From Microbacterium sp. RU33B (GTDB lineage: Bacteria > Actinomycetota > Actinomycetes > Actinomycetales > Microbacteriaceae), in contig NZ_FTPO01000001.1 of assembly GCF_900155915.1 (NCBI RefSeq), positions 124,001 through 188,000 of the forward strand: 64,000 bases of DNA, written 5' to 3'. Shown piece by piece: positions 969 through 29,023 of this stretch. Numbering within the stretch: the stretch's first letter is position 1; the number at the start of each line of letters is the position of its first letter. The notes beneath the pieces are model-generated. The model ran no database searches and had not been told where the DNA came from. It was given only the letters and a program-made list of their open reading frames with translations. The position numbers and the translations under genes are program-made.

Positions 969-1997
969 ATGATCATCGACATCCACGGTCACTACACGAC
1001 CGCCCCCGCCCAGCTCGGGGTGTGGCGCGATCTGCAGATCGCGTTCGTCGAGAACGGCGGGGCAGAGCCGTCCTCGGGCGACCTGAGCATCAGCGACGAC
1101 GACATCCGCGAGACCATCGAAGCCAACCAGCTGAAGCTCATGGACGAGCGCGGCAGCGACGTGACGGTGTTCAGTCCGCGCGCCTCCTTCATGGCCCACC
1201 ACATCGGCGATGTCGGCGTCAGCCGGACGTGGGCACGCATCTGCAACGATCTCGTGGCTCGCGTCTCCGGGCTCTTCCCCGGCCGATTCCTCCCCGGGGC
1301 CATGCTCCCGCAGTCGCCCGGCGTCGATCCGAAGACGACCCTCGCCGAGCTCGACCGGGCCGTGCACGAGCTGGGTGTGGTGACCGTCAACATCAACCCC
1401 GATCCGTCCGGCGGCCTGTGGACGGCGCCGCCGCTCACGGACAGGAGCTGGTATCCGCTCTACGAGAAGCTCGTGGAGTACGAACTGCCCGCGATGATCC
1501 ACGTCAGCACCTCGTGCAAGCCCCAGTTCCACACGACCGGCGACCACTACCTCGGTGCCGACACGACGGCCTTCATGCAGCTGCTCAAGGGCGACCTGTT
1601 CCGCGATTTCCCCGACCTGACCTTCGTGATCCCGCACGGCGGCGGCGCCGTGCCGTATCACTGGGGACGGTTCCGCGGCCTCGCGATGGCGCTCGGCAAG
1701 CCCGATCTGGAAGAGCACCTGCTGGGGAACGTGGTCTTCGACACGTGCGTGTACCACCAGCCTGGAATCGATCTGCTCACGCAGGTGATCCCGACCGAGA
1801 ACATCCTGTTCGCGAGCGAGATGATCGGCGCCGTCCGTGACATCGACCCGCGCACCGGCCATCACTTCGACGACACGAGGCGCTACGTCGACGCCAGTCC
1901 GAACCTCGATGACGCTCAGCGGCAGCAGGTCTTCGAGGGCAACGCGCGGCGGGTGTATCCCCGTCTCGACCGCGCCCTCAGGGCCCGTGGCCTCTGA
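969..1997 (+). CDS. ligJ: 4-oxalomesaconate hydratase, amidohydrolase superfamily
   Basis: 342 residues, amidohydrolase-2 fold. The N-terminus MIIDIHGHYTT carries the metal-binding HxH (His6, His8) and closely resembles LigJ of Sphingobium SYK-6 as I remember it. LigJ hydrates the enol/keto tautomer of oxalomesaconate to 4-carboxy-4-hydroxy-2-oxoadipate, the penultimate step of protocatechuate 4,5-cleavage. A later motif FVIPHGGGAVPYHWGRF fits the metal-site His of this family. It is the first gene of the operon, with GAAGGA ahead of the ATG, and is followed directly by ligK. Function is supported both by similarity and by every neighbour belonging to the same pathway. Confidence 0.9.
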   Translation: MIIDIHGHYTTAPAQLGVWRDLQIAFVENGGAEPSSGDLSISDDDIRETIEANQLKLMDERGSDVTVFSPRASFMAHHIGDVGVSRTWARICNDLVARVSGLFPGRFLPGAMLPQSPGVDPKTTLAELDRAVHELGVVTVNINPDPSGGLWTAPPLTDRSWYPLYEKLVEYELPAMIHVSTSCKPQFHTTGDHYLGADTTAFMQLLKGDLFRDFPDLTFVIPHGGGAVPYHWGRFRGLAMALGKPDLEEHLLGNVVFDTCVYHQPGIDLLTQVIPTENILFASEMIGAVRDIDPRTGHHFDDTRRYVDASPNLDDAQRQQVFEGNARRVYPRLDRALRARGL

Positions 1998-2024
1998 ACG
2001 GTCCGCCCGCACGGAAGAGACTCC

Positions 2025-2729
2025 ATGACCCAGAGACTGAACGACCTCGGCATCGTGCGTACCGGCATCCGGCGACCCGATCCGGGCGACGTCGCGCGAC
2101 TGTCCGCCTTCGGCGTCGCCACGATCCACGAGGCCATGGGACGGGTCGGTCTGCTCCGCCCCTACATTCGCCCTGTGTACGTCGGCGCGAGACTGTGCGG
2201 CCCCGCCGTCACGGTGCTGCTGCAGCCCGGCGACAACTGGATGTTCCATGTCGCCGCCGAGCAGGTGCGCGAGGGCGACGTGCTCGTCGCCGGCTGCACG
2301 ACGGAGAGTGAAGACGGCTTCTTCGGCGAGCTGCTCGCGACGTCGCTCTCGGCCCGGGGGTGCGCCGGACTCGTCATCGACGGCGGAGTGCGGGATGTGG
2401 CCGATCTCGAACGGATGGACTTCCCCGTCTTCGCGCGGGCGATCAACGCCAAGGGCACGGTCAAGGCCACGCTCGGCTCGGTGAACATCCCCGTGGTCGT
2501 CGCGAACGCGCTCGTGAACCCCGGCGACGTGGTGGTGGCTGATGTCGACGGCGTCGTCGTCGTGCCGCGCGACCTCGTCGCCGCCGTCGCCGACGCGTCG
2601 GCGACACGCGAGGCGAATGAGGAGGGCAAGCGCGAGAAGTTCCGGGACGGCGTGCTGGGGCTCGACCTCTACGGCATGCGGGAGCCGCTCGCTGCGGCAG
2701 GCCTGAAGTACGAGGAGGACCGCGGATGA
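2025..2729 (+). CDS. ligK: 4-carboxy-4-hydroxy-2-oxoadipate aldolase, RraA-like family
   Basis: 234 residues, the usual length for LigK/ProA/GalC class II pyruvate aldolases of the RraA fold. The segment [20 protein letters not shown] carries the family's GxxGxVxDGxxRD signature for metal and pyruvate binding. The enzyme cleaves 4-carboxy-4-hydroxy-2-oxoadipate to pyruvate and oxaloacetate, ending the 4,5-cleavage pathway. GGAAGAG precedes the ATG. The stop overlaps the start of ligI (ATGA at 2726), indicating translational coupling. RraA itself regulates RNase E, but this operon context makes the aldolase role far more likely. Confidence 0.9.
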
Positions 2730-3679
2730 CCGGCGCCGGAACATCCCCGCACGGCCAGACCACGGGGGGCTTCGAGAAGACCCCCGGGTGGCTCGACTGG
2801 TACGACGGCCCGAGTGCACCGACGTTCCGGATGCCCGCCGGCGCGGTCGACGCGCACTGCCACGTCTTCGGCCCGGGAGATCGGTTCCCCTACGCGCCGG
2901 AACGCAAGTACACCCCGTGCGACGCCTCGGCCGAGCAGCTCTTCGCGCTGCGCGATCGGCTCGGGTTCGATCGCAACGTCATCGTCCAGGCGACCTGTCA
3001 CGGCTCCGACAACCGCGCGCTCGTTGATGCGCTCCGCCGTAGCGGCGGACGGGCGCGGGGTGTCGCGACGGTGCGGCGCGACGTGACCGACGCCGAGATC
3101 GCCGAACTGCACGAGGCCGGCGTCCGCGGCGTGCGGTTCAACTTCGTCAAGCGCCTCGTCGAGCGCCTCGACACGGCCGCGCTCGAGGAGATCGTCCACA
3201 AGATCACTCCGCTCGGGTGGCACGTGGTCATCTACTTCGAGGCCGAGGATCTGCCCGAGCTCTACGACTTCTTCTCCGGCATCCCGACCGACGTCGTCGT
3301 GGACCACATGGGACGCCCGGATGTCGGCAAGGATCCCGATGGCCCCGAATTCGGCCTGTTCCTGCGCTTTCTGCGCGAGAACCCCAACGTGTGGACCAAG
3401 GTGTCCTGCCCGGAGCGTCTCTCCCTGACGGGACCTCCGGCACTCGACGGCGAGCGGTACGCGTATACCGACGTGGTGCCCTTCGCCCGACGCGTGGTGG
3501 AGGAGTTCCCCGACCGCGTGCTCTGGGGGACGGACTGGCCTCACCCCAACCTGACCGACCACATGCCCGACGACGGGCTGCTGGTCGACCACATTCCTCG
3601 CATCGCCACGACCGTCGCACTGCAGAAGCAGCTGCTGGTCGACAACCCGCTTCGCCTCTACTGGCCCGAAGGAGCATGA
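2726..3679 (+). CDS. ligI: 2-pyrone-4,6-dicarboxylate lactonase
   Basis: 317 residues, amidohydrolase superfamily. The metal or substrate motif [11 protein letters not shown] (His44, Cys45, His46) and the late GTDWPHP motif with Asp270 match the LigI family, which hydrolyses 2-pyrone-4,6-dicarboxylate to 4-oxalomesaconate. The N-terminal extension of about 35 residues ([15 protein letters not shown]) is typical of PDC lactonases. It overlaps ligK by 4 bp and is followed by ligAB after 1 bp. A PDC lactonase, aldolase, hydratase and dehydrogenase in one operon make the assignment secure. Confidence 0.9.
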
Positions 3680-3680
3680 C

Positions 3681-5036
3681 ATGGCACTCGACAAGCCGTA
3701 CAAGAACGTTCCCGGCACGACCATCTTCGACGCCGATCAGGCGCGCAAGGGCTACCACCTCAACCAGTTCTCGATGTCGCTGATGAAGCCGGAGAACCGC
3801 GAACGCTATCTCGCGGATCGCGAGGCGTACCTCGATGAGTGGCCGCTCACGCCCGTGCAGCGGCAGGCCGTGCTCGATTTCGACCTCAACACCTGCATCG
3901 CCGAGGGCGGCAACATCTACTTCCTCAGCAAGATCGGCGCCACGCACGGACTGAGCTTCCAGCAGATGGCGGGCTCTATGACCGGCATGAGCGAGGCCGC
4001 CTACCGCGACATGATGGTCTCGGGTGGCCGCCGACCCGAGGGTAACCGCTTGAAGGACCTCGACGGGTGGACGCCGCCGTCCACCGAGAAGTCGCAGGTG
4101 ATGCGCCCCGACGCCCCTGCACGCTTCACGTCGGCTCTGTTCACGTCGCACGTGCCCGCGATCGGCGCCGCCATGGACCACGGCAAGACCCAGGAGCCGT
4201 ACTGGAAGAAGGTCTTCGACGGGTACGAGTGGACGCGCGCCTGGGCGAAGGAGAACACGCCGGATGTCATCATCCTCGTCTACAACGACCACGCCACCGC
4301 CTTCGACTCGAACATCATCCCCACCTTCGTCCTCGGCACCGGCGATCACTATCCCGTCGCCGATGAGGGCTACGGGCCGCGCCCGGTTCCTGACGTGAAG
4401 GGATACCCCGAACTCGCCGCTCACATCGCCCAGTCGGTCATCCAGGACGACTTCGATCTGACTCTGGTCAACGAGATGGTCGTCGACCATGGGCTCACCG
4501 TGCCGCTGTCGCTCGTCTTCGGCGACGTCGACGAATGGCCGTGCCGCGTGATCCCGCTTCCCGTCAACGTCGTCCAGTACCCGGTGCCGTCGGGGCGCCG
4601 CTGCTACGAGCTCGGCAAGGCCATCCGTCGTGCGCTGGACAAATGGGAGGGCCCGGAGCTGAAAGTCCAGATCTGGGGAACCGGCGGCATGAGTCATCAG
4701 CTCCAGGGACCGCGCGCCGGCCTGATCAACGAAGAGTGGGACAACGCGTTCCTGGACCACCTCATCGCCGATCCCCTGGGCCTGACCGAATGGTCGCACA
4801 TGGAGTACGTCGATGAAGCGGGTTCCGAGGGCATCGAACTCGTGGACTGGCTGATCGCCCGCGGAGCGATGGACGACCAGTTCGGCGGCGGCGCCCCCGA
4901 CGTGAATCACCGGTTCTACCATGTGCCGGCATCCAACACCGCGGTCGGGCATCTCGTGATCAGCAACCCCGTCGCCCGGGACCGTGCGGCAGAGGTCGCC
5001 GAACACGCGCCCGTCGTCGAGGAGGTCACCGTATGA
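3681..5036 (+). CDS. ligAB: Protocatechuate 4,5-dioxygenase, fused alpha-beta chain
   Basis: 451 residues. Residues 1 to about 130 match the small LigA alpha subunit (RARKGYNLNQF-like segment at 21-30; GGNIYFLSK; GSMTGM). Residues from about 145 to the end match LigB, the catalytic extradiol type II subunit. Likely Fe(II) ligands are His157 (LFTSHVPAIG) and His204 (YNDHATAFD), with a Glu in the GSEGIELVDWLI segment. The enzyme opens protocatechuate between C4 and C5 to 4-carboxy-2-hydroxymuconate-6-semialdehyde. In SYK-6 the two chains are separate genes; here they are one polypeptide with alpha first. Gallate cannot be excluded as a substrate. GAAGGAG at 3668-3674 supports this start. Confidence 0.9.
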   Translation: MALDKPYKNVPGTTIFDADQARKGYHLNQFSMSLMKPENRERYLADREAYLDEWPLTPVQRQAVLDFDLNTCIAEGGNIYFLSKIGATHGLSFQQMAGSMTGMSEAAYRDMMVSGGRRPEGNRLKDLDGWTPPSTEKSQVMRPDAPARFTSALFTSHVPAIGAAMDHGKTQEPYWKKVFDGYEWTRAWAKENTPDVIILVYNDHATAFDSNIIPTFVLGTGDHYPVADEGYGPRPVPDVKGYPELAAHIAQSVIQDDFDLTLVNEMVVDHGLTVPLSLVFGDVDEWPCRVIPLPVNVVQYPVPSGRRCYELGKAIRRALDKWEGPELKVQIWGTGGMSHQLQGPRAGLINEEWDNAFLDHLIADPLGLTEWSHMEYVDEAGSEGIELVDWLIARGAMDDQFGGGAPDVNHRFYHVPASNTAVGHLVISNPVARDRAAEVAEHAPVVEEVTV

Positions 5037-5986
5037 GCGAGAGAGTGCGCGTCGCCGTCGTCGGCGCCGCCGGCGCGTTCGGCATGAAGCACCTCGACGG
5101 TCTGGCCGCGATCGAGGACGCCGATGTCACGGTGGTCAGCGGCACGCGCCCCGAAGCCACGCAGTCGGTCGCCGAGAAGTACGGGGTCCCGGTGGCGGTC
5201 GTGGGACTGGACGCCGTCCTCGAGCGCGACGATGTCGACGCGGTGATCCTCGCCACGCCCACGCAGATGCACGCCGCGCAGACGCAGGCGGTGCTCGCCG
5301 CGGGCAAGCACGTGCAGGTCGAGATCCCGCTCGCGGATTCGCTGGCGGATGCCGAGGCCGCGCTCGCCGCCGCGGAGGCATCCGACCGGGTGTCCATGGT
5401 CGGCCACACCCGCCGCTTCAACCCGTCCCACCGATGGGTGCACCGCAGGATCACGGCAGGCGACTTCGCCGTGCAGCAGATGGACGTGCAGACGTACTTC
5501 TTTCGTCGAACCAACACCAACGCGAAGGGTGAGCCGCGCTCGTGGACCGATCACCTGCTCTGGCACCATGCCGCGCACACGGTCGACCTGTTCGCCTATC
5601 AGGCCGGGCGGATCGTGCAGGCGAACGCGCTGCGCGGGCCGATCCACCCGGTCCTCGGCATCGCGATGGACATGTCGATCCAGCTCAAGAGCGAGACGGG
5701 TGCGATCTGCACGCTCTCGCTGTCGTTCAACAACGAGGGCCCGTTCGGCACCTTCTTCCGCTACATCGGCGACACCGGCACGTACGTCGCCCGGTACGAC
5801 GACCTCGTCGACGGATCGGAGACCCCGATCGATGTGTCGCAGGTGGCGGTGAGCATGAACGGGATCGAACTGCAGGACCGTGAGTTCGTCGCGGCGATCC
5901 GGGAGGGGCGGGAGCCCGACTCCTCTCTCCGACAGGTCATGGACTGCTACCGCGTGCTCGGAGGACTCGAGGAACAGCTCGCGTGA
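5033..5986 (+). CDS. ligC: 4-carboxy-2-hydroxymuconate-6-semialdehyde dehydrogenase
   Basis: 317 residues, Gfo/Idh/MocA family with an N-terminal NAD(P)-binding Rossmann motif (VAVVGAAGAFGMKHLDGL). Long stretches such as HVQVEIPLADS, MVGHTRRFNPSH and WTDHLLWHHAAHTVDLFAYQ are those I recall from SYK-6 LigC. It oxidises the hemiacetal form of the ring-cleavage product to 2-pyrone-4,6-dicarboxylate, feeding LigI. The start overlaps the ligAB stop by 4 bp (ATGA). This is one of the most confidently assigned genes in the window. Confidence 0.93.
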   Translation: MSERVRVAVVGAAGAFGMKHLDGLAAIEDADVTVVSGTRPEATQSVAEKYGVPVAVVGLDAVLERDDVDAVILATPTQMHAAQTQAVLAAGKHVQVEIPLADSLADAEAALAAAEASDRVSMVGHTRRFNPSHRWVHRRITAGDFAVQQMDVQTYFFRRTNTNAKGEPRSWTDHLLWHHAAHTVDLFAYQAGRIVQANALRGPIHPVLGIAMDMSIQLKSETGAICTLSLSFNNEGPFGTFFRYIGDTGTYVARYDDLVDGSETPIDVSQVAVSMNGIELQDREFVAAIREGREPDSSLRQVMDCYRVLGGLEEQLA

Positions 5987-6957
5987 TGCTGCCCCGCCTC
6001 GGTCTCGGCTGCATGTCGCTGAGCCACGCGTACGGACTCCCGCCGTCGGAGGAAGCAGGGCTCTCGATGCTGCGCGCCGCGCTCGACGAGGGAGTGCGGA
6101 TGCTGGACACGGCCACTCTCTATGGCGCGGGCCGCAACGAGGAGCTCGTCGGACGGGCGATCGTCGGGCGTCGCGACGAGGTGCTGCTGGCCAGCAAAGG
6201 GGGCATGGCGCTCGTCGACGGCGTGAGGACCATCGACGGCAGACCCGAGACTCTGCGTGCGCAGGTCGATGCGTCGTTGCGTCGCCTCGGGGTCGAGCGC
6301 ATCGACCTGTACTACCTGCATCGGTGGGATCGCCGGGTGCCCATCGGCGAGAGCGTCGGCGCGTTGGCCGAGATGGTCGCCAGGGGGAAGATCGGAGCGA
6401 TCGGGCTCTCCGAAGTGTCGGTTCCGCGTCTGCGCGACGCACTCCAGGTCGCACCGATCGCGGCCGTGCAGAACGAGTATTCGCTGTGGAGCCGCAACCC
6501 CGAACTCGGGATGCTGGAGGAGACCCGACGGCGGGGGATCGCGCTCGTGGCGTTCTCACCTGTCGCCCGCGGATTCCTCGCCGACGCAGTGCGCGATCCC
6601 CAACGATGGGCGGAGAACGACATCCGCCGCAACCTGCCGCGATTCCAGGGCGAGAACTGGCGCGCGAACGCGGCGATCCTGCCCGCGTGGCGCGCGCTCG
6701 CCGTTGAGGCAGGCTGTACGCCGGCGCAGCTCGCTCTGGCGTGGCTGCTCTCGCGCGGCGAACACGTCGTGCCGATCCCCGGCACGACGGACATCGGACA
6801 TCTGCGGCTGAACCAGACGGCACTGGATCTCGATGTCGACGCCGGGATACTCGAGCGCGCGGGGCGGCTCGTGGGCACCGAGACGGTGTCGGGGCCGCGG
6901 TACGGCGCTGCGCAGACGGCCGAAGTCGACGCCGAGTCTTTCGAGGTGGCGCGGTGA
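5983..6957 (+). CDS. Aldo/keto reductase
   Basis: 324 residues with the AKR TIM-barrel layout. The N-terminus is LPRLGLGCMSLSHAYG, the catalytic Asp/Tyr stretch is LDTATLYGAGRNEELVGRAI (Asp, Tyr), the Lys is in LASKGG, and the C-terminal NADPH-binding part is VVPIPGTTDIGHLRLN. It belongs to the Tas/YajO-like group. The start may be GTG at 5983 or ATG at 5986; both overlap the ligC stop. Position inside the lig operon suggests reduction of an aromatic aldehyde or keto-intermediate from a peripheral pathway, but the substrate cannot be read from the sequence. Confidence 0.85.
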   Translation: MMLPRLGLGCMSLSHAYGLPPSEEAGLSMLRAALDEGVRMLDTATLYGAGRNEELVGRAIVGRRDEVLLASKGGMALVDGVRTIDGRPETLRAQVDASLRRLGVERIDLYYLHRWDRRVPIGESVGALAEMVARGKIGAIGLSEVSVPRLRDALQVAPIAAVQNEYSLWSRNPELGMLEETRRRGIALVAFSPVARGFLADAVRDPQRWAENDIRRNLPRFQGENWRANAAILPAWRALAVEAGCTPAQLALAWLLSRGEHVVPIPGTTDIGHLRLNQTALDLDVDAGILERAGRLVGTETVSGPRYGAAQTAEVDAESFEVAR

Positions 6958-9159: not shown

Positions 9160-10635
9160 ATGCCCAACGGACTCATCACCGAAGACAGCCTCCGCCCGCA
9201 CGTGGACGGACTCGCGCTGAAGCTCACCCTGCCCTGGTACCGGAGCCTCTGGCTGTCCTCCGTGGGCACCCTGAAGGTCACGATCGACGGGGCCGCGGTG
9301 CCGGCATCCGATCTCGCCTTCGAGCTGACCGGCCAGCGGTACACCCTGGACCAGCTGCCCGAGCAGAGTGAGACGCTCTGGTACCTGCAGGAGCACCCAC
9401 TGCTGATCGTGCGTCGCGACGCGCCGATCACGCTCGGCGAGACGCACGACGTCGAGATCTTCGGCGAGCTGCGTCTGCCGTACATGCAGATCGCGCCGGG
9501 GCAGGACGGCGGACCGGGCATGTACGTCCCGAACATCGTCCGGCAGTCGTTCACACTGACCGCGACCGACGCGGATGCCGCGCCCCTGGCCGTCGTCTCG
9601 GACGTTGCCCCGCCGCCTCCGGCAACGGACGCCGACCCGTTCCAGCTCGGGCTGACGCTGTACTCCGCCAGCGCGGAGTTCCGCGCGGGCTGGTACGACT
9701 TCGACTCGCTGCTCGGCCGCGTCGCCGAACTCGGCATCGGCCCGGGCATCGAGATCGTCGCCTCGCAGGTGCTGCCGACCTACCCGCACGTATCGCCCGA
9801 ATTCATCGCCGACTGGCGGGCGGCGTTCGACAAGTACGGCTTCGACGAGAGCTCGTTCGGGGCGAACCTCGACATGGGCCGCCGCCGCGATCGCGACATG
9901 ACCGACGACGAGGAGTTCGAATTCAGCGAGATCCTCTTCCGGGATGCCGCGGCCCTCGGCTTCCCGCTCGTGCGCATCCAGAGCGCCAAGCCCGCGCTGC
10001 TGCGACGCCTGCTGCCGATCGCCGAGCAGCTGAACCTGAAGCTCGCGTACGAGATCCATGCGCCGATGGGGCCGAACGCGCCTCAGGTGATGAAGGTCCG
10101 CGACGTCTACGCCGAGCTGGACTCGCCGCTGCTCGGGTTCGTCGCGGACTTCTCCTCGACGATGCACGCGATGTCGCCGACCCTCCTGCGAGCCGTGCAG
10201 CGCGCGGGGCTGGACGACGAGGCCGTGGCGAAGCTCCAAGCGATCTGGGCGACCGACGCGTCGATGCAGGAGCGCCAGCAGGAGTTCATCGGCTACCTCA
10301 AGAGCCGCGACTTCGACCCGGGGCGGCTGGGTGCGTTCGCGCACCTCGCGTTCAACATGCACGGGCACGTCGCGCCACAGGAGTGGACGGACATCATGCC
10401 GCAGATCCTGCACGTGCACGCGAAGTTCTACGACATCGACGAGAACGGCCTGGAGCCCGCGATCGATTATCCCGAGCTCGTGCGCGTGTTCGTCGAGGGA
10501 GGATACCGCGGCTACTGGTCGAGCGAATGGGAAGGCCACGCGTTCGCCGAGCTCGGCGAGGTCGATCCGCTCCTCCTGGTGCGCAAACAGCACGACCTGA
10601 TCCGGCGCTCGATGCGGGCGCTGCAGCCGGCATGA
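9160..10635 (+). CDS. Fused C-glycoside deglycosidase, beta-alpha single chain
   Basis: 491 residues. Residues 1-135 closely match the free beta subunit at 29024 ([19 protein letters not shown]; YMQIxPGxDGGPGxYV). A proline-rich linker lies near 150-160. Residues 162-491 closely match the free alpha subunit at 27902. All predicted metal and catalytic residues are kept: Glu298, His300, Asp330, His418/His420 and Glu456. Known CGDs are alpha/beta heteromers that use Mn2+ to split 3-keto-C-glycosides into aglycone and an unsaturated keto-sugar; this appears to be the same machine on one chain. AAGGA at 9147-9151 supports the ATG at 9160. It lies 37 bp after the previous gene. Confidence 0.8.
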   Translation: MPNGLITEDSLRPHVDGLALKLTLPWYRSLWLSSVGTLKVTIDGAAVPASDLAFELTGQRYTLDQLPEQSETLWYLQEHPLLIVRRDAPITLGETHDVEIFGELRLPYMQIAPGQDGGPGMYVPNIVRQSFTLTATDADAAPLAVVSDVAPPPPATDADPFQLGLTLYSASAEFRAGWYDFDSLLGRVAELGIGPGIEIVASQVLPTYPHVSPEFIADWRAAFDKYGFDESSFGANLDMGRRRDRDMTDDEEFEFSEILFRDAAALGFPLVRIQSAKPALLRRLLPIAEQLNLKLAYEIHAPMGPNAPQVMKVRDVYAELDSPLLGFVADFSSTMHAMSPTLLRAVQRAGLDDEAVAKLQAIWATDASMQERQQEFIGYLKSRDFDPGRLGAFAHLAFNMHGHVAPQEWTDIMPQILHVHAKFYDIDENGLEPAIDYPELVRVFVEGGYRGYWSSEWEGHAFAELGEVDPLLLVRKQHDLIRRSMRALQPA

Positions 10636-12470: not shown

Positions 12471-13934
12471 GTGACCGCCTTCACGAACCCGATCCTGCCC
12501 GGAGACCGCCCTGACCCGGCAGTCATCAAGGTCGGCGACGAGTACTGGCTGACGTACTCCTCCTTCGAGGCCGCGCCGGGGCTGCCGCTGTACCGCTCCG
12601 CCGATCTGGTGAACTGGACGTACGAAACCTCCGCGCTGCCGAATCCCGTCGGCAACACGTTCGCGGTCGATATCGCCGAGCACGACGGTCGCTTCTTCAT
12701 CTACATCCCGTTCATCCCGACGCCGTGGTCGACGCTGACGGAGGCATCGATCTTCGTGATCCACGCTGATGCGATGAGCGGCCCGTGGTCCGAACCGATC
12801 GACCTCGGTGTCCGCGGCGCGATCGACCCGGGCCACATCGTGGGGGAGGACGGTGCACGCTGGCTGTTCACGAGCGGAGTTCGCCGCATCCAGCTCGCCG
12901 ACGACGGGCTGTCGACGGTCGGCGAACTCGAGCGCGTCTACGACGGCTGGCGCTACCCCGACGAGTGGATCACCGAAGCGTATGCACTGGAAGGGCCGAA
13001 GCTGTTCTGGCGCAACGGCTGGGCCTACCTCGTCAGCGCCGTCGGCGGTACCGCCGGGCCGGCAACCGGACACATGGTGATCGTCGCGAGGTCGCGCTCG
13101 GTGGATGGGCCGTGGGAGAACCACCCGCGCAACCCGATCGCCCGCACCGAGGACGCGTCCGAGGCCTGGTGGTCGCGCGGACACGCGACGCTCGTCCCAG
13201 GGCCGACGGGTGATCCTCAGGACTGGTGGATGGTCTCGCACGGCTACGAGAACGGATACCGCACCCTCGGCCGCCAGATCCTGCTCGAGCCCATCCGGTG
13301 GGGCGACGACGACTGGCCCGAGACGGTCGCCCAGGACGTCGGCACACCGATCGAAGCGCCCGGCGCGGCGTCCCCGGCGCCGACACCGGACTTCACCGAC
13401 GACTTCTCCGCGTTCGAGCTCGGCTGTCGCTGGACGTTCCACGCGCCCGGCCGTCGTGAGCTCGAGCGCGTCCGGATCGACGACGGACTGGTGCTGCGGG
13501 GAAAGGGCGGCTCGCCCGCCGACACCTCGCCGCTCGCGATGCTCACCGGCGACCACGCGTACGAGATCGAGGTGGATGTCGAGCTGCTCGGTGAGGCCGA
13601 GGCCGGCGTGCTGCTCTTCTTCAACAACCGGCTCTTCTGCGGCATGGGGATCGACGGAGAGCACATGTCGAGCTATTCGGGCGGCATCCGCACGCACTGG
13701 CGGGAGCCCGCTCCGGCGACCGATCGGATCACGCTGCGGATCCGCAACGACGAGCACATCGTCACGGGCTGGTACCGCATCCCTGGCGGTGAATGGACGC
13801 GGCACGCGATCCGCTACGACACCTCCGGCTATCACGCCAACACCGTCGGCGACCTGCTGAGCCTGCGTCCCGCGCTGTATGCGACGGGTGCGGGTGGGGC
13901 GCGTTTCCGCGAGTTCCGCTACACCGCCTCCTGA
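12471..13934 (+). CDS. Glycoside hydrolase family 43 (xylosidase/arabinofuranosidase type)
   Basis: 487 residues in two parts: an N-terminal five-bladed propeller (about 1-300) and a C-terminal beta-sandwich (about 320-487, DUF1349-like). Catalytic residues by motif are Asp15 (DRPDPAVIK, general base), Asp119 (IDPGHI, pKa modulator) and Glu174 (LEGPKLFW, general acid). No signal peptide, so it likely acts on imported oligosaccharides or glycosides. The GTG start follows GGGGA and lies 16 bp after the nucleoside hydrolase, in the same operon. It probably removes arabinosyl or xylosyl residues. Confidence 0.85.
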   Translation: MTAFTNPILPGDRPDPAVIKVGDEYWLTYSSFEAAPGLPLYRSADLVNWTYETSALPNPVGNTFAVDIAEHDGRFFIYIPFIPTPWSTLTEASIFVIHADAMSGPWSEPIDLGVRGAIDPGHIVGEDGARWLFTSGVRRIQLADDGLSTVGELERVYDGWRYPDEWITEAYALEGPKLFWRNGWAYLVSAVGGTAGPATGHMVIVARSRSVDGPWENHPRNPIARTEDASEAWWSRGHATLVPGPTGDPQDWWMVSHGYENGYRTLGRQILLEPIRWGDDDWPETVAQDVGTPIEAPGAASPAPTPDFTDDFSAFELGCRWTFHAPGRRELERVRIDDGLVLRGKGGSPADTSPLAMLTGDHAYEIEVDVELLGEAEAGVLLFFNNRLFCGMGIDGEHMSSYSGGIRTHWREPAPATDRITLRIRNDEHIVTGWYRIPGGEWTRHAIRYDTSGYHANTVGDLLSLRPALYATGAGGARFREFRYTAS

Positions 13935-17625: not shown

Positions 17626-20600
17626 TCAGGGCGCGATCAAGAGGTGGACCGGGCCGTCGAGCCCGGCGGGAAGCGGCCTCGCCGTCGGATCGAACACGCC
17701 GGTGACGGGGGGGAAGAGCTCGCCCGTCGGGTGCTCCGCTTCGCTGATCAATCGGTTCCGCCACGGTGTGGCGACATGGACGACGAGACTGTTGCGCCCC
17801 GTGCGGACGGCCTGCGAAACGTCGACGCGGAATGGCGAGGTCCAGGCGATTCCGCACTCGATGTCGTTCATGACGACGCGCGCGATCGCATCCACCGACG
17901 TGAAATCGAGCAGAGCGGAGCTCCTCCCGCCCGCCTCCAGGGAGAACTCGTGACGATAGACCGCGGTACCCGAGAATCCGGTGTCGGCCGCGGGGAGATC
18001 AGTCCATCGCACCGGATGCGGGGAGGTCGACAAGACCGCCGCATTCGGGAGTTCTACGGTCCACACACCGTCCAGAGCGATACGACTGCGTGGCGAGGGT
18101 GCCGGCGGCGCCGCTTCAGGCACGACGAAGAGAGAACCGAACGGAGGAAGCTCCACCGTCCACGTGGGTCGCGGCTCCGTCGTGTCTCGTTCGATCCTCA
18201 CGCGCTGCACCGTCACGGGGTCCCATCCCGCGAGCGCGTCCTCGTGCGCGGGCGTGAGACGAAGGCGCAGCGTGGCGGCGGTCGGATTGGAAAGGAAGGT
18301 GACGAGTCGATCGCCCACGATGCGGGCGATGCGGCGCACAGCCCCGCCGTCGACGACGAGAGCAGGTGCCATGCCCAGCCCGACGAGCGCATCGGGCAGG
18401 TCGGAGGCGATGACGCGCCCTGAGCTCCAGAGGCGATCGCACGCGATCGAGAAGGCGCGGGGGTCGTCAGCGAGTGAGGGCGATGACTCGGGACGCATGC
18501 CCACGACCACGCCCCCTGCTGCGACGATCCGCTCGAGCTGGGTCAGCGCGGCGAGGGTCATCCGACGACAGGAGCCTCCGAGGAAGAGGAGGCGGTAGGT
18601 CGCTCCCTCGGCTTCGAGCCGCCCGTCCGCGACTCGGATCACATCGGCGAGGGCATCCGGCCCGATGTAGTCGAAGTCGAAGCCCGGGGGGACGGACATG
18701 TCGACGGCATCCTGGTACAGCCCGGTCACGGGCGCTTCCTCTCCGACGAAGACCGCGATGTCCACGGCGGGGCGACCCGCGCTCAGGACGGCGCTGCAGC
18801 GCGCCAGATAGTCGATCCAGGGGCCGGCCATCGTCGACCAGGTCTCGTGCACCGTGAACGACTGTCCCAGAAAAGGCGCCAGTGCGATTCCCGGCGGTGG
18901 CGCAGCAAGAGGCTGATGGGGAGAGGTGTGGATGCAGAATCGGGTGACCCCCAGCGCGAGCTGAAGGTCGGCGATGTGCTTCAGCGACTGCGGTGACCAC
19001 GACCACGGTTGATCGAACGAGGTGAACGCCTCACTTCCCGTCCACGCCTTGCCGTACACGTGGGCGACGGAGGACGCTCCTTTGAGATCTGCCACGTAGG
19101 TGGGACGCGGGCCGACATCGGGGGCGAACGTCCACATCGCACCCATGGGTATGTCGGCGTGGGAGCGCATCGCCAGGTCATCGCCGAGTTGAGGCCGTCG
19201 ATCCTCCAGAGCCTCCGAGTAGTAGGTCATCTGTCGTCGACGCGCCTCGGCTCCGAGCGTGCCGTAGTACTCGGAGCCGAGGAGGTCGGAGAGTGTTCGG
19301 CGATAGTCGAAGAGGAATCGGTCCGTCTCGGCGGCGCTGCCGATCAGCCGGCCGGTGAGCGCAGGGATCCAGGGGAGGGGGTCGTACCCTCGGCGTGCGG
19401 TGAACTCCTCGAGTACCCGATCGGTCCAGTTCTGCGGTCCCGCTTCGATGCTGTCGCTGAGGAGGGCGGCGAATCGCGAGGGCGTGGCATCCTCTCCGCC
19501 GAACCGGCGCAGATGCTCTCTCAGATACGCCGTCACGCGGTCGCCGGCGAGCTTGTCCACCTCCAGCCCGGTCGAATCCTGCGGCGCCGGCCCGTTGGTC
19601 TGGCCGGTGAGGGACGCTCCGACGCGGAGGATCAGCCAGCGGCCCTCGGGCGCGCTCCAGTCCAGCAGCCCGTCGCGGACGCAGGACGTGACGTCGATGA
19701 CGCGATGAGGCGATACGGCCCCGGCATCCTGTTCCCCGTCGACCGCGTAGTAGTCGGCCACGACGCCGAATCCGGCCTTTACCTCCGCATGGTGCACCCG
19801 GGCATCCGTGCGGAGCGCGAACTCCGACACACGGAACTCGTGCGCTCGCCGGAGGACCGGCGGAAGGCGCACGCCCGGTGCGGTCGGCGGGAGGGCCTCG
19901 GCGGCGCTGCCGCCCGAAAGCACGAGGCGAAACCATCGTCCAGCGACGGGGGCGAAGCTGGCAGTCCGCGCCGGCACCGTCGTGGGCTCCAGGCGCACCA
20001 CATCACGGTAGGTCATGCCGTCGTCGCTGACCTGGAGCACAGCGTCCGCCGCGGGGGCGGCGCCGAAGCCCCGCGGGCCGGGGAGTCCGACGGTCACCGA
20101 TCGCACCGTCACCGGCGAGTCGAAGCGCTGCTCGATCCACGCCGCCGACCACGCGTCGGGGTCGCGCGGGAGGGCGACGCACGCATCGAACGATCCGTCG
20201 ACGATCGCGTCCCACGTGCGCAGAGGAGCGGATGCGGACACCTCCGTGGGGCGCAGTGTTTCGTCCTCGGCCCGGTGCGGCAGGGCCAGCGCCCGCCAAT
20301 CCACTGCGAAGTCACCCCTCGGCGGCCCGTCCTCACGCGGGGAGTCCTGATACAACCCGGCGACGGCCGGGAGGGGAGCGAGTCGGACGAGCGCGCGTCC
20401 GCCACCCTCGACCAGGGTCTCCGACCACACCACCTTCTTCATCGCGTCCTCGGCGGCGACCCAGGGGCCTCCGGCCGCGCTCCATCCCGACGACGTCGCC
20501 ACGGCGAGCTCCATGCCCAGCCGGTTCGATGTGTCGACGGCCGCATCGATCGCCTCGGTCCATGCGGGCGAGCCGGGACGCACCGCTTCGGGAACGACGA

Positions 20601-20811
20601 GGGGGACTCCCATGCCACCGTCGAAGAGCTGAACCCCGCGCACGCCCACTGCGTGCAGCCAGGTGAGATCCCGGCGGATTCCGGCGGGATCGATGTTTCC
20701 GTCCATCCAGTGCCACCACGCTCGCGGCCGGGCCGCATCGGGCGGGTGGATGAAATCGGCCCAGAGCGACTGGTATGCGTCGTTTCCGCCGCCGGCATCG
20801 TGGGTTCTCAC
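17626..20811 (-). CDS. GH106-type alpha-L-rhamnosidase
   Basis: 1061 residues from a GTG. The N-terminus (PPDAARPRAWWHWMDGNI, then a WLHAVGVRGVQLFDGG stretch) is the hallmark of GH106 rhamnosidases, and the length fits the family. The C-terminal quarter includes a galactose-binding-like beta-sandwich (TAVYRHEFSLEAGGRSSALL). No signal peptide was recognised, so intracellular action is likely. Rhamnosidases of this family remove rhamnose from flavonoid rutinosides, neohesperidosides or plant cell-wall rhamnogalacturonan. It is divergent from the ABC permease pair, indicating that its substrate is imported by that transporter. Confidence 0.85.
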   Translation of the reverse strand: MRTHDAGGGNDAYQSLWADFIHPPDAARPRAWWHWMDGNIDPAGIRRDLTWLHAVGVRGVQLFDGGMGVPLVVPEAVRPGSPAWTEAIDAAVDTSNRLGMELAVATSSGWSAAGGPWVAAEDAMKKVVWSETLVEGGGRALVRLAPLPAVAGLYQDSPREDGPPRGDFAVDWRALALPHRAEDETLRPTEVSASAPLRTWDAIVDGSFDACVALPRDPDAWSAAWIEQRFDSPVTVRSVTVGLPGPRGFGAAPAADAVLQVSDDGMTYRDVVRLEPTTVPARTASFAPVAGRWFRLVLSGGSAAEALPPTAPGVRLPPVLRRAHEFRVSEFALRTDARVHHAEVKAGFGVVADYYAVDGEQDAGAVSPHRVIDVTSCVRDGLLDWSAPEGRWLILRVGASLTGQTNGPAPQDSTGLEVDKLAGDRVTAYLREHLRRFGGEDATPSRFAALLSDSIEAGPQNWTDRVLEEFTARRGYDPLPWIPALTGRLIGSAAETDRFLFDYRRTLSDLLGSEYYGTLGAEARRRQMTYYSEALEDRRPQLGDDLAMRSHADIPMGAMWTFAPDVGPRPTYVADLKGASSVAHVYGKAWTGSEAFTSFDQPWSWSPQSLKHIADLQLALGVTRFCIHTSPHQPLAAPPPGIALAPFLGQSFTVHETWSTMAGPWIDYLARCSAVLSAGRPAVDIAVFVGEEAPVTGLYQDAVDMSVPPGFDFDYIGPDALADVIRVADGRLEAEGATYRLLFLGGSCRRMTLAALTQLERIVAAGGVVVGMRPESSPSLADDPRAFSIACDRLWSSGRVIASDLPDALVGLGMAPALVVDGGAVRRIARIVGDRLVTFLSNPTAATLRLRLTPAHEDALAGWDPVTVQRVRIERDTTEPRPTWTVELPPFGSLFVVPEAAPPAPSPRSRIALDGVWTVELPNAAVLSTSPHPVRWTDLPAADTGFSGTAVYRHEFSLEAGGRSSALLDFTSVDAIARVVMNDIECGIAWTSPFRVDVSQAVRTGRNSLVVHVATPWRNRLISEAEHPTGELFPPVTGVFDPTARPLPAGLDGPVHLLIAP

Positions 20812-23944: not shown

Positions 23945-24754
23945 ATGTACCAGCTCTCACCCAACATCGAACTGCTCTACACCGAGGCGGGCGACTACCA
24001 CGACCGTGTTCGCGCGGCCGCTGCGGACGGGTTCGACGCAGTCGAGATGTGGGGGCCGACCGGAGTGGACGCTCCCGCGACGCCGAAGGACCTTCCGGCC
24101 TTGAAGGCCGCGCTCGAGGAGACCGGCACGCAGCTCACCGCGCAGCTCAGCGAGCCCCGAACGCAGTTCATGATCCCGCCGTGGGACCACTCGGACTTCT
24201 TCCGCAAGCTCGACGAGGGCGTCGAGATCGCGCACTTCCTCGGCACGCCGCGCCTGGTCGTCGGCAGCGGAACGGGGTTCGGCGGATGGAAGCGCCAGGT
24301 GCAGCTGGACAAGCTCATCGAGATCTACCGGAGGGCCATCGCGCAGATCGAGGGTTCGGGCGTCACACTCGTGCTCGAGCCGGTCAACGTCCGCGTCGAC
24401 CACCCGGGGTCGCTCCTGGACCGTACCGCCGAGGGCGTCTATGTCGCCAAGGGAGTCGACTCCCCGTTCTTCGGCGTGCTGTACGACATCTACCACTCGG
24501 CCGTCGAGGGCGAAGACATGGCGGCGGAGCTGGCGAACGCCGGATCCATCGTCAAGTACGCGCAGCTCGCGGACGCGCCCGGCCGCGGGGAGCCCGGCAC
24601 CGGCGTTCTGGACTGGCCGGCGACGCTGAAGACGCTCCGAGCGTCGGGCTACGACGGTCCGATCGGGCTGGAGTACTACCCGCAGACCGCGTCGACGGAG
24701 TCCGTCCGCTACATCCGCGAGGTGGCGGCCACGTTCGAGGACGTCTCATCGTGA
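23945..24754 (+). CDS. Hyi-like TIM-barrel sugar isomerase/epimerase
   Basis: 269 residues, in the hydroxypyruvate isomerase group of the AP-endonuclease-2/xylose-isomerase superfamily. The four metal ligands of that family are visible: Glu145 (LVLEPVN), Asp181 (LYDIYHS), Gln207 (YAQLADAPGRGEPGTG) and Glu243 (GLEYYP). It is the first gene of the operon and overlaps the GMC oxidase gene by 4 bp (GTGA). In this context it probably isomerises the keto-sugar released after C-glycoside cleavage rather than hydroxypyruvate; the motifs support isomerase chemistry, and the substrate is inferred. Confidence 0.8.
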   Translation: MYQLSPNIELLYTEAGDYHDRVRAAAADGFDAVEMWGPTGVDAPATPKDLPALKAALEETGTQLTAQLSEPRTQFMIPPWDHSDFFRKLDEGVEIAHFLGTPRLVVGSGTGFGGWKRQVQLDKLIEIYRRAIAQIEGSGVTLVLEPVNVRVDHPGSLLDRTAEGVYVAKGVDSPFFGVLYDIYHSAVEGEDMAAELANAGSIVKYAQLADAPGRGEPGTGVLDWPATLKTLRASGYDGPIGLEYYPQTASTESVRYIREVAATFEDVSS

Positions 24755-26277
24755 GCGAGCGCTACCCCGAATCCGTCGACGTCGCGATCGTCGGCAGCGG
24801 CCCGACCGGCGCAGCGTACGCCCGCATCCTGAGCGAACGGGCGCCTGCCGCCACGATCGCGATGTTCGAGGTCGGACCCACGGTCTCGAACCCTCCCGGC
24901 GCGCACGTGAAGAACATCGCCGACCCCGCAGAGCGGGCGCAGGCCCAGGTGCGCTCCGAGGGTCCGCTGGCGCGCGACGTCACCGATCACGTCGGCGGAA
25001 TCGTGAAGACCACCCAGCGCCGCGCGCGACCCGGCACGTTCCTCCTCGAGGAGGGCTTCCAGGTCGAGGGCGAGGACGGGCTTCCCGTCGCGGCGTTCTC
25101 GAGCAACGTCGGAGGCATGGCCGCCCACTGGACCGGCGCCTGCCCGCGCCCGAACGACAGCGAGCGCATCGGATTCCTCGAGGACGACGGCGTCTTCGAG
25201 GACCTTCTCGCAGAGGGTGATCGCCTGCTCGGCGTCACGACCGACGCGTTCGATTCCTCGCCGTACGCGCCTCTCATCCGCGAACGGCTCGCCGCAGCCG
25301 CGGACGCGGGACGGGACCCGCACGAGCGCGTCCAGCGGATGCCGCTGGCCGTGCATCGCCGAGATGACGGGCGTCTCGTCTGGTCGGGTTCGGACGTCGT
25401 CATGGGCGACGTCACACGCGACAACCCGAACTTCCACCTCTTCGACGAGTCGCTCGTCACGTCCGTCCTCGTCGAGAACGGACGTGCGGCCGGCGTGCTC
25501 GTGAGCGACAGGCGGACCGGCGAGAGCAGTGAGGTGCGCGCCCGCTTCGTCGTCGTCGCCGCGGACGCCCTGCGCACTCCGCAGCTGCTCTGGGCATCCG
25601 GCATCCGCCCCGCCGCCCTGGGCCGCTACCTCAACGACCAGGCGCAGATCGTGTTCGCCGTACGCATCCGCGACTTCACGATCGACGCCGACGCCGAGGG
25701 CGCCGGGTCGACCGGGCTCAGCGAGTACAGCGGCGTGACGTGGGTGCCCTTCACCGACGAGGCGCCGTTCCACGGTCAGGTGATGCAGCTGGACGCGTCG
25801 CCGATCAAGCTCGCCGATGACGACCCCGCCGCTCCCGGCTCGATCGTGGGGCTCGGGCTGTTCTGCGCGAAGGATCTGCAGTGGCAGGACCGCGTGGAAT
25901 TCTCCGCGGACGCGACGGACGCGTACGGGCTCCCGGCCATGACGATCCACTACACCCTCACCGATCGCGATCGCGAGGTCGTCGAGCGCGCGAAGGCGGA
26001 GATCGTCCGGCTGGGCACGGCGATCGGAGAGCCGCTGGACGATCGTCCGTTCCAGATGCCCCTCGGCGCCTCCCTGCACTATCAGGGGACGACTCGGATG
26101 GGCCCTGTCGACGACGGCACGAGCGTGTGCTCACGCGAGAGCGAGGTCTGGGGGACGCCCGGCCTGTTCGTCGCCGGCAACGGTGTCATCCCGACGGCGA
26201 CGGCGTGCAATCCGACCCTCACGTCGGTCGCGCTCGCGGTGAGCGGAGCGCGTGCGATCGCGGCAGGGCTGGCCTGA
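24751..26277 (+). CDS. FAD-dependent GMC oxidoreductase, C-glycoside 3-oxidase candidate
   Basis: 508 residues from a GTG overlapping the preceding stop. An FAD-binding Rossmann motif (VAIVGSGPTGAAYARIL) lies at the N-terminus, and the segment SSNVGGMAAHWTGACPRPND holds the flavin-contacting region. The catalytic His443 (SLHYQG) and Asn487 (CNPTLTS) pair is spaced as in pyranose 2-oxidase. The overall pattern resembles CarA, the C-glycoside 3-oxidase described from Microbacterium, as I recall it. CarA oxidises C3 of the sugar of carminic acid, mangiferin and similar compounds, making the CGD substrate. Adjacent CGD genes strongly support this role. Confidence 0.85.
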   Translation: MSERYPESVDVAIVGSGPTGAAYARILSERAPAATIAMFEVGPTVSNPPGAHVKNIADPAERAQAQVRSEGPLARDVTDHVGGIVKTTQRRARPGTFLLEEGFQVEGEDGLPVAAFSSNVGGMAAHWTGACPRPNDSERIGFLEDDGVFEDLLAEGDRLLGVTTDAFDSSPYAPLIRERLAAAADAGRDPHERVQRMPLAVHRRDDGRLVWSGSDVVMGDVTRDNPNFHLFDESLVTSVLVENGRAAGVLVSDRRTGESSEVRARFVVVAADALRTPQLLWASGIRPAALGRYLNDQAQIVFAVRIRDFTIDADAEGAGSTGLSEYSGVTWVPFTDEAPFHGQVMQLDASPIKLADDDPAAPGSIVGLGLFCAKDLQWQDRVEFSADATDAYGLPAMTIHYTLTDRDREVVERAKAEIVRLGTAIGEPLDDRPFQMPLGASLHYQGTTRMGPVDDGTSVCSRESEVWGTPGLFVAGNGVIPTATACNPTLTSVALAVSGARAIAAGLA

Positions 26278-26799: not shown

Positions 26800-27905
26800 C
26801 CGGCACGCTCGGTGCGCCCATCCAGGGCGTCACGCTCTACAGCTTCACCCGGGCATTCCACGCCCGCGAGTACGATCTCGAGCAGCTGATCCGCAGGACG
26901 GCCGCCGAGGGCTTCGGCCCGGGCCTGGAGATCATCGGGTTCTCCAGCTTCCGCGGATTCCCCGAGATCGACGATGCCTACGCGGGCTGGTTCAAGGACC
27001 TCGTGGCCGAAGTCGGGCTGGTGACGACCTCGCTCGCTGTGAACGCCGACATCGGCATCCACCGCGACCGCCTGCTCGACCAGGACGAGCTCATCGAATA
27101 CATGACGCGTCAGATCAAGGCAGCCGCCAAACTCGGCTTCCCGATCGCGCGCGTGCAGATCTCGATCGAGCCGGACTCGATGGAGGCCCTCGCTCCGATC
27201 GCCGAGGCGCACGGTGTCACTCTCGCCCTCGAAGTGCACGCCGACCAGTACGCGTCGCACCCGCGCATCCTCGCGCTGCGCGACCGCTACGAGAAGGTCG
27301 GCTCGCCCTTCCTCGGCTTCACGATGGACTGGGGTGCCACTGTCACCGGCTTCGCTCCGTCGCTCATCGAGGCCTACCGCCGCCGTGGGGCGTCGGAAGA
27401 GCTGCTCGGCCAGGTCGTGGACCTCTGGAACACCTACTACGAGCAGGGTCCGCCGGCCGACCAGGCCGAGCACGGCCAGCGCTTCGGGTCGTTCATCGGG
27501 CTCGCGGCCCGCAATGGTCGCCCCGATCTCGGCATCGACTTCGGCATCAACGGCACGGGCCTCTTCGGTCCGGCGCGCGTAGACGACTGGCTCGCGATCG
27601 CCCCGTGGATCACGCACGTCCACGGCAAGTTCTTCGGCATCGACGAGAACGGCGAGGAGCCGTCGGTTCCCGTCCGTGACCTCGTGAAGCTCCTCGTCGA
27701 CAACGGCTACAAGGGTGCGATCTCCAGCGAATACGAAGGCTGGCACTGGAACCACTGGCAGTCCCCGTTCGACATCATCCGCGCCGAGCAGGCCGTGCAG
27801 CGCTCCGCCGCCGTCGACGCCGGCTCGCGCATGGTCACCGACCTCGCCGAGGCGCGCGCCCAGCTCGCCGCGTGGCTGCCCACCCCCGAAGGAGCGAACG
27901 CATGA
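26796..27905 (+). CDS. C-glycoside deglycosidase alpha-subunit-like TIM barrel
   Basis: 369 residues, xylose-isomerase-like TIM barrel. Predicted metal and catalytic residues are Glu146 and His148 (LALEVHAD), Asp178 (TMDWGA), His274/His276 (THVHGKFFGIDE) and Glu312 (SSEYEGWH), equivalent to those of the gene at 27902. The C-terminus is longer than in 27902 and ends in an Ala-rich helix. The adjoining beta gene at 26404 is the obvious partner. It may be a paralogous CGD with a different C-glycoside range, or a downstream isomerase. The start codon overlaps the beta stop and its own stop overlaps the next start (ATGA). Confidence 0.78.
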   Translation: MTGTLGAPIQGVTLYSFTRAFHAREYDLEQLIRRTAAEGFGPGLEIIGFSSFRGFPEIDDAYAGWFKDLVAEVGLVTTSLAVNADIGIHRDRLLDQDELIEYMTRQIKAAAKLGFPIARVQISIEPDSMEALAPIAEAHGVTLALEVHADQYASHPRILALRDRYEKVGSPFLGFTMDWGATVTGFAPSLIEAYRRRGASEELLGQVVDLWNTYYEQGPPADQAEHGQRFGSFIGLAARNGRPDLGIDFGINGTGLFGPARVDDWLAIAPWITHVHGKFFGIDENGEEPSVPVRDLVKLLVDNGYKGAISSEYEGWHWNHWQSPFDIIRAEQAVQRSAAVDAGSRMVTDLAEARAQLAAWLPTPEGANA

Positions 27906-28954
27906 GCTACGGCATCGCCGGCACCGGCATCAAGCTCGGGACGACGCTCTATTCGATGACGAGCGAATTCGCTGCGGGTCTGTACACGCCCGAGACGCTC
28001 ATCAGGGCAGTACACGATGAAGGCATCGGCCCCGGCATCGAGTTCAACATCGCCCAGCTGCTGCGCACGTACCCCGACGTCGATGACGCCTTCGTGAAGC
28101 TCTGGTTCGACTCGCTCGAGAAGTACGGGCTGGAAGCCAGCGCGGTCGGCACGAACCTCGACATGGGTCGCCGCAAGGACCGCGACATGACCCCGGACGA
28201 AGAGCACGACTTCTTCGCCCGCCAGCTGAAGACGGCGCACACGCTCGGGTTCACCAAGATCGTGATCCGCTCGGCCGGCAAAGAGCTGCTGCGCCGCCTC
28301 CTGCCGCTCGCCGAACAGTACGACCAGTACCTCGGGTACGAGATCCACGCACCGGTCGGACCCAACGACCCGAAGATCGTCGAGATCCGCGAGGTCTACG
28401 ACGAGCTCCAGTCCGAGCGGCTCGGCTTCACCGCCGACTTCTCCTCGACGATGCACTCGCTCTCCCCGACACTGCTGCGCACGCTCGGCCAGATGGGGAT
28501 GGACGAGAAGCACTTCCCCGTCATGGAGGAGATCTGGCACGAGCCGACGCCGATGCATGTACGCAACCAGAAGTTCGAGGACTACCTCTCCGGCGAGGGC
28601 GTCGACTTCCTGCGGTTCGGACCCTTTACGCGGCTGGCCTTCAACATGCACGGACTCGTGCCGCCGGAGGAGTGGCTCGACATCATGCCGCAGATCTTCC
28701 ACGTGCACGCGAAGTTCTACGACATCGACGACAACGGCGCCGAGCCCGCGATGGACATTCCGCGGATCGTGAAGCAGTTCGTGGACGGCGGGTACCGCGG
28801 CTACCTCTCCAGCGAGTGGGAGGGCCACGCGTTCGCCGATCTCGGCGAAGCCGACCCGATCGATCTCGTGAAGAAGCAGCACGCGCTCATGCGCAAGGCC
28901 ATCGAAGACACGGTGGCAGGAAACGACGCCATGACGGAGGCCGCGAGTGTCTGA
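27902..28954 (+). CDS. C-glycoside deglycosidase alpha subunit
   Basis: 350 residues, TIM barrel. Metal and catalytic candidates are Glu147 and His149 (YEIHAPVG), Asp179 (ADFSSTMH), His267/His269 (FHVHAKFYDID) and Glu305 (SSEWEGHAF). In characterised CGDs such residues hold Mn2+ and a His base that drives beta-elimination of the aglycone from the 3-keto-C-glycoside. It is highly similar to residues 162-491 of the fused protein at 9160. The matching beta subunit is at 29024, after a 22-codon mini-frame. The start overlaps the upstream gene by 4 bp. Confidence 0.82.
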   Translation: MSYGIAGTGIKLGTTLYSMTSEFAAGLYTPETLIRAVHDEGIGPGIEFNIAQLLRTYPDVDDAFVKLWFDSLEKYGLEASAVGTNLDMGRRKDRDMTPDEEHDFFARQLKTAHTLGFTKIVIRSAGKELLRRLLPLAEQYDQYLGYEIHAPVGPNDPKIVEIREVYDELQSERLGFTADFSSTMHSLSPTLLRTLGQMGMDEKHFPVMEEIWHEPTPMHVRNQKFEDYLSGEGVDFLRFGPFTRLAFNMHGLVPPEEWLDIMPQIFHVHAKFYDIDDNGAEPAMDIPRIVKQFVDGGYRGYLSSEWEGHAFADLGEADPIDLVKKQHALMRKAIEDTVAGNDAMTEAASV

Positions 28955-29015
28955 CACGACGATCGCGCCGGCACCGCCGTCGGCGCACGAGCACTTCACC
29001 GACACCTTCGCCTAG
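28947..29015 (+). CDS. 22-codon mini-ORF bridging CGD alpha and beta genes
   Basis: A GTG overlapping the alpha stop (GTGTCTGA) opens a frame of 22 codons beginning MSDTTIAPAPP and closing with TAG. The stop abuts the GGAGAAACC ribosome site of the beta gene. No domain is recognisable. It may keep ribosomes moving across an otherwise untranslated 69-bp gap and so couple alpha and beta synthesis, or be the remnant of a deleted gene. Expression is unproven. Confidence 0.3.
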   Translation: MSDTTIAPAPPSAHEHFTDTFA

Positions 29016-29023
29016 GAGAAACC

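Follow-up and report, generated by a model that had tools for sequence, protein, structure and literature searches.

C–C glycosidic bonds are hard to break. The C-glycoside deglycosidases (CGDs) that have been characterised are protein pairs, with the active site formed at the common interface of the two chains, according to the portions of PMC8563793 available to us. They include MiCGD, AgCGD1, MtCGD and PurBC from soil and PuCGD and EuCGD from the gut, all of which occur as alpha-beta dimers or alpha4-beta4 octamers in the accessible text of PMC8563793 and PMC12724307. A review (PMC12141560, excerpts) regards evolution between heterodimer and fusion enzyme as noteworthy and calls for phylogenetic work on it; in the accessible parts of these three open papers, the description of CGDs as heteromers from which the earlier note on this DNA had started holds. 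A single-chain form is present in the PDB, where the entries 8QRZ and 8UN2 (the latter from cryo-EM), released on 2025-04-23, contain a 435-aa beta-alpha protein deposited as a C-glucosyl deglycosidase of Microbacterium testaceum.

We analysed a stretch of 64,000 nucleotides from Microbacterium sp. RU33B (the window). The gene at 9160..10635 (+) encodes P0001, a protein of 491 aa whose reading frame (9160-10632 plus the stop codon) contains zero internal stops on translation; AAGGA, which resembles a ribosome-binding site, lies upstream of its ATG. We interpret P0001 as a single-chain CGD, in which a beta-sandwich and a TIM barrel would do the work of the beta and alpha subunits, and give this reading a probability of roughly 0.8. 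The beta-sandwich (CGDB domain, residues 1-134, 9160..9561, +) includes Tyr27. A joining stretch of 35 residues (128-162, 9541..9645, +), made up of the end of the beta domain and a proline-rich linker, leads to the alpha domain, a TIM barrel with a lid (9640..10632, +).

Pfam searches matched CGDB (PF19906) at residues 14-108 with 58.7 bits against a cut-off of 27.6, and AP_endonuc_2 at residues 188-484 with 34.3 bits against a cut-off of 31.1, while NCBIfam matched none of the proteins P0001-P0007. Residues 3-127 are 51.2% identical to the free beta subunit P0007 (29024), and residues 162-485 are 55.2% identical to the free alpha subunit P0006 (27902). Translation, Pfam and alignments therefore bear out what had been proposed from the letters of the window: one frame with a CGD beta domain, a proline-rich linker and a CGD alpha barrel, similar to the two free genes, with an N-terminal domain that profile searching places in the CGD beta family. 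The closest PDB match is AgCGD2 (AgCarB2-C2; 7DNM and 7DNN) from Arthrobacter, with an E-value of 2.4e-128 and 59% identity for the alpha part and an E-value of 3.2e-28 for the beta part. This closest characterised relative has the same metal and base residues and the lid, but differs in consisting of two chains, in carrying Arg123 where P0001 has Gln and in its shorter beta loop. Gene order differs too: among AgCGD2 relatives the beta gene, where found nearby, follows alpha, whereas P0001 runs from beta to alpha. The soil and gut enzymes named above belong to the same family and share the chemistry proposed for P0001, and differ from it in not being one chain.

A gap-free alignment to AgCGD2 shows that P0001 has E298, H300, D330, H420, K422, E456 and E458. 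By homology, E298, D330, H420, K422 and E456 are the predicted metal ligands, H300 the predicted base and E458 its predicted partner. In AgCGD2 numbering these are E147, H149, D179, H269, K271, E305 and E307, and all are kept in 21/21 alignment rows nearest P0001 (17 from its own clade and four split relatives). The lid is likewise kept in the P0001 rows: across AgCGD2 positions 182-246 their median length is 65 residues, the same as in AgCGD2 itself. The earlier statement that metal and catalytic residues are kept is thus right overall, although only His420 of the pair His418/420 corresponds to an AgCGD2 metal ligand; Lys422, as a further ligand, and Glu458, as partner of the base, come in addition to that list. 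As reported in the available sections of PMC8563793, replacing any one of the five metal ligands of PuCGD and MiCGD by alanine causes a dramatic drop in activity, and the base and Glu mutants of MiCGD retain 1.8% and 1.9%. The equivalent His and Glu mutants of PuCGD keep 10.4% and 49.8% (same excerpts), so these residue rules are not absolute. On the beta side, Tyr27 corresponds to Tyr39 of the PuCGE beta subunit, where the Y39F exchange lowers C-glycoside activity about 1.2 x 10^4-fold (PMC10628242, in part).

The clues to the substrate, C6 versus C8, conflict. The alpha pocket, which retains AgCGD2 Phe242, Asn248 and Met249 with Arg123 replaced by Gln, is mostly AgCGD2-like, and the AgCGD2 substrate is a C8-glycoside. 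Close to the aglycone, the beta loop exceeds that of AgCGD2 by about six residues, and the accessible text of PMC8563793 describes a four-residue insertion in this loop in C6-acting soil enzymes.

Metal-dependent beta-elimination of 3-keto-C-glycosides is the most likely function of P0001; this reaction, its metal and the roles of the residues are all carried over from characterised homologues. In a mechanism drawn from the available parts of PMC8563793 and PMC10628242, C3 of the sugar would be oxidised by a glycoside 3-oxidase, for which the GMC enzyme at 24751 is the probable candidate, and the resulting 3-keto-C-glycoside would bind a divalent metal ion coordinated by E298, D330, H420, K422 and E456. 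His300, aided by E458, would then remove the C2 proton, with Tyr27 of the beta domain holding the aglycone phenolate, and beta-elimination would split the C–C bond to give the aglycone and 3-keto-glucal.

Directly upstream of P0001 lies a second beta-alpha fusion, P0002 (7821..9122, +), which is lidless and 84% identical to 8QRZ chain A over all 433 residues. Since 8QRZ and 8UN2 are already in the PDB, the fused CGD is not new as an architecture, contrary to the novelty suggested in the earlier note. A fused CGD is therefore on record as a deposited structure, albeit one from another CGD subfamily. The deposited protein and P0001 share the CGD family and the order of beta then alpha in one chain; they are, however, only 28% identical over 285 structurally aligned residues and fall into separate clades in both alpha and beta trees, and 8QRZ is lidless with Gln at the metal His269 position, whereas P0001 is lid-bearing and AgCGD2-like. 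Sequence and fold searches of the PDB found no fused structure from the subfamily of P0001. We found no publication on a fused CGD, the 8QRZ paper included, in the open-access literature, subscription papers being outside the scope of the search, and text searches of PMC10646112, PMC10807413 and PMC11673046 gave no occurrence of ‘fused’ or ‘fusion’.

The change of the metal ligand His269 (AgCGD2 number) to Gln in P0002 is found in 22/23 P0002-type rows, 8QRZ included, and these rows keep the other metal and catalytic residues. Because the only exception is a deep split row (G791), the change probably predates the P0002-type fusion, as far as these sequences indicate. One metal His is thus missing from P0002, although the related 8QRZ was deposited as a CGD. 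The joining stretch of P0002-type proteins measures 21 residues in 49/50 and 22 in one, using landmarks that differ from those behind the 35 residues of P0001.

An AF2 model of P0001 built from 49 sequences reached a mean pLDDT of 89.9 and a pTM of 0.89. Its alpha part aligns with 7dnm_A (VIA Z 39.6, rmsd 2.7, 335 residues) and its beta part with 7dnm_B (Foldseek E 7.3e-14). The whole chain, by contrast, fits 8UN2 poorly, with an rmsd of 17.6 Å over 506 columns, and the VIA rows of the model to 8QRZ and 8UN2 cover the alpha part only. As a control, P0002 modelled by the same method reproduces full-chain 8QRZ with an rmsd of 1.3 Å over 431 residues. This poor fit, set beside the successful control, suggests that the domains of P0001 may be arranged within the chain in a way unlike 8QRZ, as predicted by AF2.

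The third fusion, P0003 (32203..33624, -), is divergent. Its CGDB match of 20.6 bits lies under the Pfam cut-off of 27.6, and its alpha part matches 7dnm_A with an E-value of 5.6e-22. P0003-type rows retain the metal ligands, but the base His is Gln in 14/14, Glu307 is Gly in 13/13 readable rows and the beta Tyr is Ile in 13/13 rows having a beta. Having lost all three of these residues, P0003 is probably no efficient CGD, although some deglycosidase activity would be in keeping with the partial activity of the PuCGD His and Glu mutants. The joining stretch ranges from 17 to 45 residues in the 12/18 P0003-type proteins in which the markers were found. P0003-like genes are fused in some genomes, and in others are split or carry an in-frame TGA between the parts. 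Our searches found no description of this CGD-like clade.

All five CGDB copies of the genome lie within the window, three of them fused and two in split pairs. In the first split pair, the beta subunit P0004 (26404..26799, +) overlaps the alpha subunit P0005 (26796..27905, +), in the order beta-alpha. In the second, the alpha subunit P0006 (27902..28954, +) is 80% identical to AgCGD2 alpha and the beta subunit P0007 (29024..29440, +) has AgCGD2 beta as its top PDB match. The GMC oxidoreductase gene (24751..26277, +; start codon uncertain) encodes the candidate glycoside 3-oxidase, which would supply the 3-keto substrate. The cluster as a whole comprises this oxidase, the two split CGD pairs, Gfo/Idh/MocA, GH and transport genes, and its core is syntenic in relatives. 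A GH106 alpha-L-rhamnosidase (17626-20811, -) and a GH43 enzyme (12471-13934, +) are encoded near the CGD genes and fit the breakdown of rhamnosylated glycosides.

Genes upstream of the fusions, at 969-6957 (+), encode two amidohydrolases, an RraA-like aldolase, a one-chain LigA+LigB, a Gfo-type dehydrogenase and an aldo-keto reductase. We take this set to resemble protocatechuate 4,5-cleavage, and it could presumably degrade released aglycones. We considered this Lig-type neighbourhood as a source of fixed partners, but none of the 13 named loci with P0001 relatives contained a match to the aldo-keto reductase or solute-binding genes immediately 5' of P0002, which were rejected in that role. 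All of these loci except L045 extend 4 kb upstream from the P0001 match, a distance that does not take in the lig genes proper.

Other accounts of P0001 have to be weighed against this evidence. It could mainly be a beta-eliminase of 3-keto-O-glycosides for which C-glycoside cleavage is a minor activity: PuCGE cuts both kinds of bond, OGE and CGE have common active-site chemistry (PMC10628242, accessible text), and the GH106 rhamnosidase and GH43 enzyme of the window fit O-glycosides. Against this, all 21 of 21 rows in the P0001 set retain the beta-domain tyrosine on which PuCGE depends specifically for C-glycosides, and the nearest enzyme that has been characterised is a CGD; we regard such a preference for O-glycosides as unlikely. 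P0001 might instead act in the cell as a heterodimer, with the alpha part also made alone from an internal start or by linker cleavage, as the proline-rich and presumably exposed linker and the separate alpha and beta genes of relatives would allow. The joining stretch in the window sequence, however, contains no in-frame ATG, GTG or TTG, its length is 35 residues in 47/49 distinct orthologues (34 in the other two), and mean dN/dS in the linker is below 1. Across the 49 orthologues, mean dN/dS is 0.35 for beta, 0.43 for the linker (residues 135-160) and 0.14 for alpha, using only pairs with pS < 0.55 (1121, 607 and 1128 of 1176, respectively). A cellular heterodimer is accordingly very improbable in our estimate.

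An isomerase or epimerase built on the TIM barrel, with a borrowed beta domain and no lyase activity, is harder still to credit. AP_endonuc_2 is common to isomerases, and P0003 provides an example of a CGD-like fusion that has lost the base, but P0001 retains both His300 and Glu458, the two residues that P0003 does not.

The single-chain CGD represented by P0001 recurs across the genus. CGDB was detected in 80/366 genus genomes, and a single-frame P0001 match that starts at residue 1 and extends to residue 480 or beyond is present in 70 of these 80, the window's own included (a hand count over the matches listed); the other 69 orthologues show 72-91% identity. In the remaining ten, P0001 is broken (G903, G968, G1174) or has no full-length match, some possibly at contig ends. 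Beyond the genus, CGDB occurs in 17/249 family, 4/394 class and 4/296 phylum genomes, with the window's own genome counted in each, and the full P0001 is found in 10/21 CGDB-positive genomes outside the genus, at 79-81% identity. Given the recurrence of the full-length frame in both sets of genomes, we rejected a sequencing artefact or chimera. These genome counts cover Actinomycetota; the wider looks comprised a plasmid collection and a contig scan that detects close relatives only.

Among the 13 named loci, which overlap in part with the genomes above and whose counts were not summed with theirs, 11 hold intact ORFs of 490-493 aa, one (L044) is disrupted by a deletion at the junction and one (L045) ends at a contig end; ten of the 13 are titled Microbacterium. 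In the genome concerned (L195/L044), the deletion leaves little of the linker and destroys the reading frame. L044 and L045 come from records titled Planococcus and Stenotrophomonas maltophilia, with copies 92% and 87% identical, and are possibly mislabelled or contaminated assemblies. A 1-Mb plasmid of Arthrobacter sp. StoSoilB13 (another family) carries P0001- and P0002-type fusions and much of the core cluster, with the alpha gene of the P0005-type pair split over two frames. The plasmid location hints at movement of the CGD cluster between genera. This was the only full-length, one-piece fused match in the plasmid collection among the matches listed (20 and 15 of 23). A match on a Niallia plasmid, in one piece, spans two annotated genes.

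To place the fusions, we built trees from 111 alpha and 104 beta rows; these were quick trees with long-branch warnings, the beta alignment having few columns, and they agree on the main clades. The P0001-type clade contains 17 rows, two of them broken genes (G1174 and G903), with a support of 99 in both trees. Its neighbours are split, namely G528 and G539, where beta precedes alpha, and the AgCGD2 type, where alpha precedes beta if a beta was found. The tree proposed in the earlier note thus puts P0001 near the AgCGD2 type and apart from 8QRZ, which falls with the P0002-type fused clade (13 rows, support 100 for alpha and 95 for beta). This second clade adjoins split G045 and then eight further split rows, and in the P0003-type clade fused and split genes are mixed.

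Once four broken or incomplete rows had been removed, the alpha tree required at least six changes between the fused and split states over 107 rows (35 fused, 72 split), a count that is blind to direction, fusion or fission. One origin for all three fused types is not favoured by this number. As the P0001 and P0002 fused clades each sit among split relatives, the sequences are most simply explained if the three CGD paralogues of this cluster fused in separate events, always with beta then alpha. P0001 itself would then most simply be a fusion that arose independently, in a subfamily for which no fused structure is known.

The junctions of split relatives indicate how such fusions may have arisen. 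Derivation of P0001 from the alpha-beta pair at 27902-29440 by stop loss was considered and rejected, the gene order there being the opposite one and the nearest split relatives, G528 and G539, being beta-alpha. In G528, from another family of the same class, TGA closes the beta gene and the alpha ATG, in the same frame, comes after a gap of four codons; the pair is therefore one stop codon from a fusion. Comparing this junction with that of P0001, we infer that the linker may consist of the former intergenic gap and the N-terminal tail of alpha. The corresponding genes of G539 are in different frames. In two split relatives of the P0002 type, G045 and G103, the genes overlap as ATGA in another frame, so the P0002-type fusion needed a frame change.

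Herein, the single-chain CGD architecture was already known from 8QRZ; what is new is the presence of three fused CGD paralogues in one cluster. A tentative reading, to which we give less than even odds, is that the three single-chain CGD folds encoded in this cluster evolved separately and differ in their functional parts. P0002 would be the 8QRZ-like, lidless version with a Gln metal site. P0001 would be lid-bearing and AgCGD2-like, with its beta domain packed at a different place from that in 8QRZ, so that oligomeric state and aglycone pocket would differ as well. P0003, with a metal site but no base, would carry out different chemistry on 3-keto sugars. Soil actinobacteria might then have used fusion repeatedly, as an adaptation that settles which partners join where five CGD beta-alpha pairings coexist.

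A one-gene enzyme of the AgCGD2 type should be easier to make and engineer. The recurring fused and split states, together with a relative that stands one stop codon away, offer a way to test what leads heteromeric enzymes to fuse. Where a single cell contains five CGD pairings, we suggest that fusion may serve to prevent mispairing.
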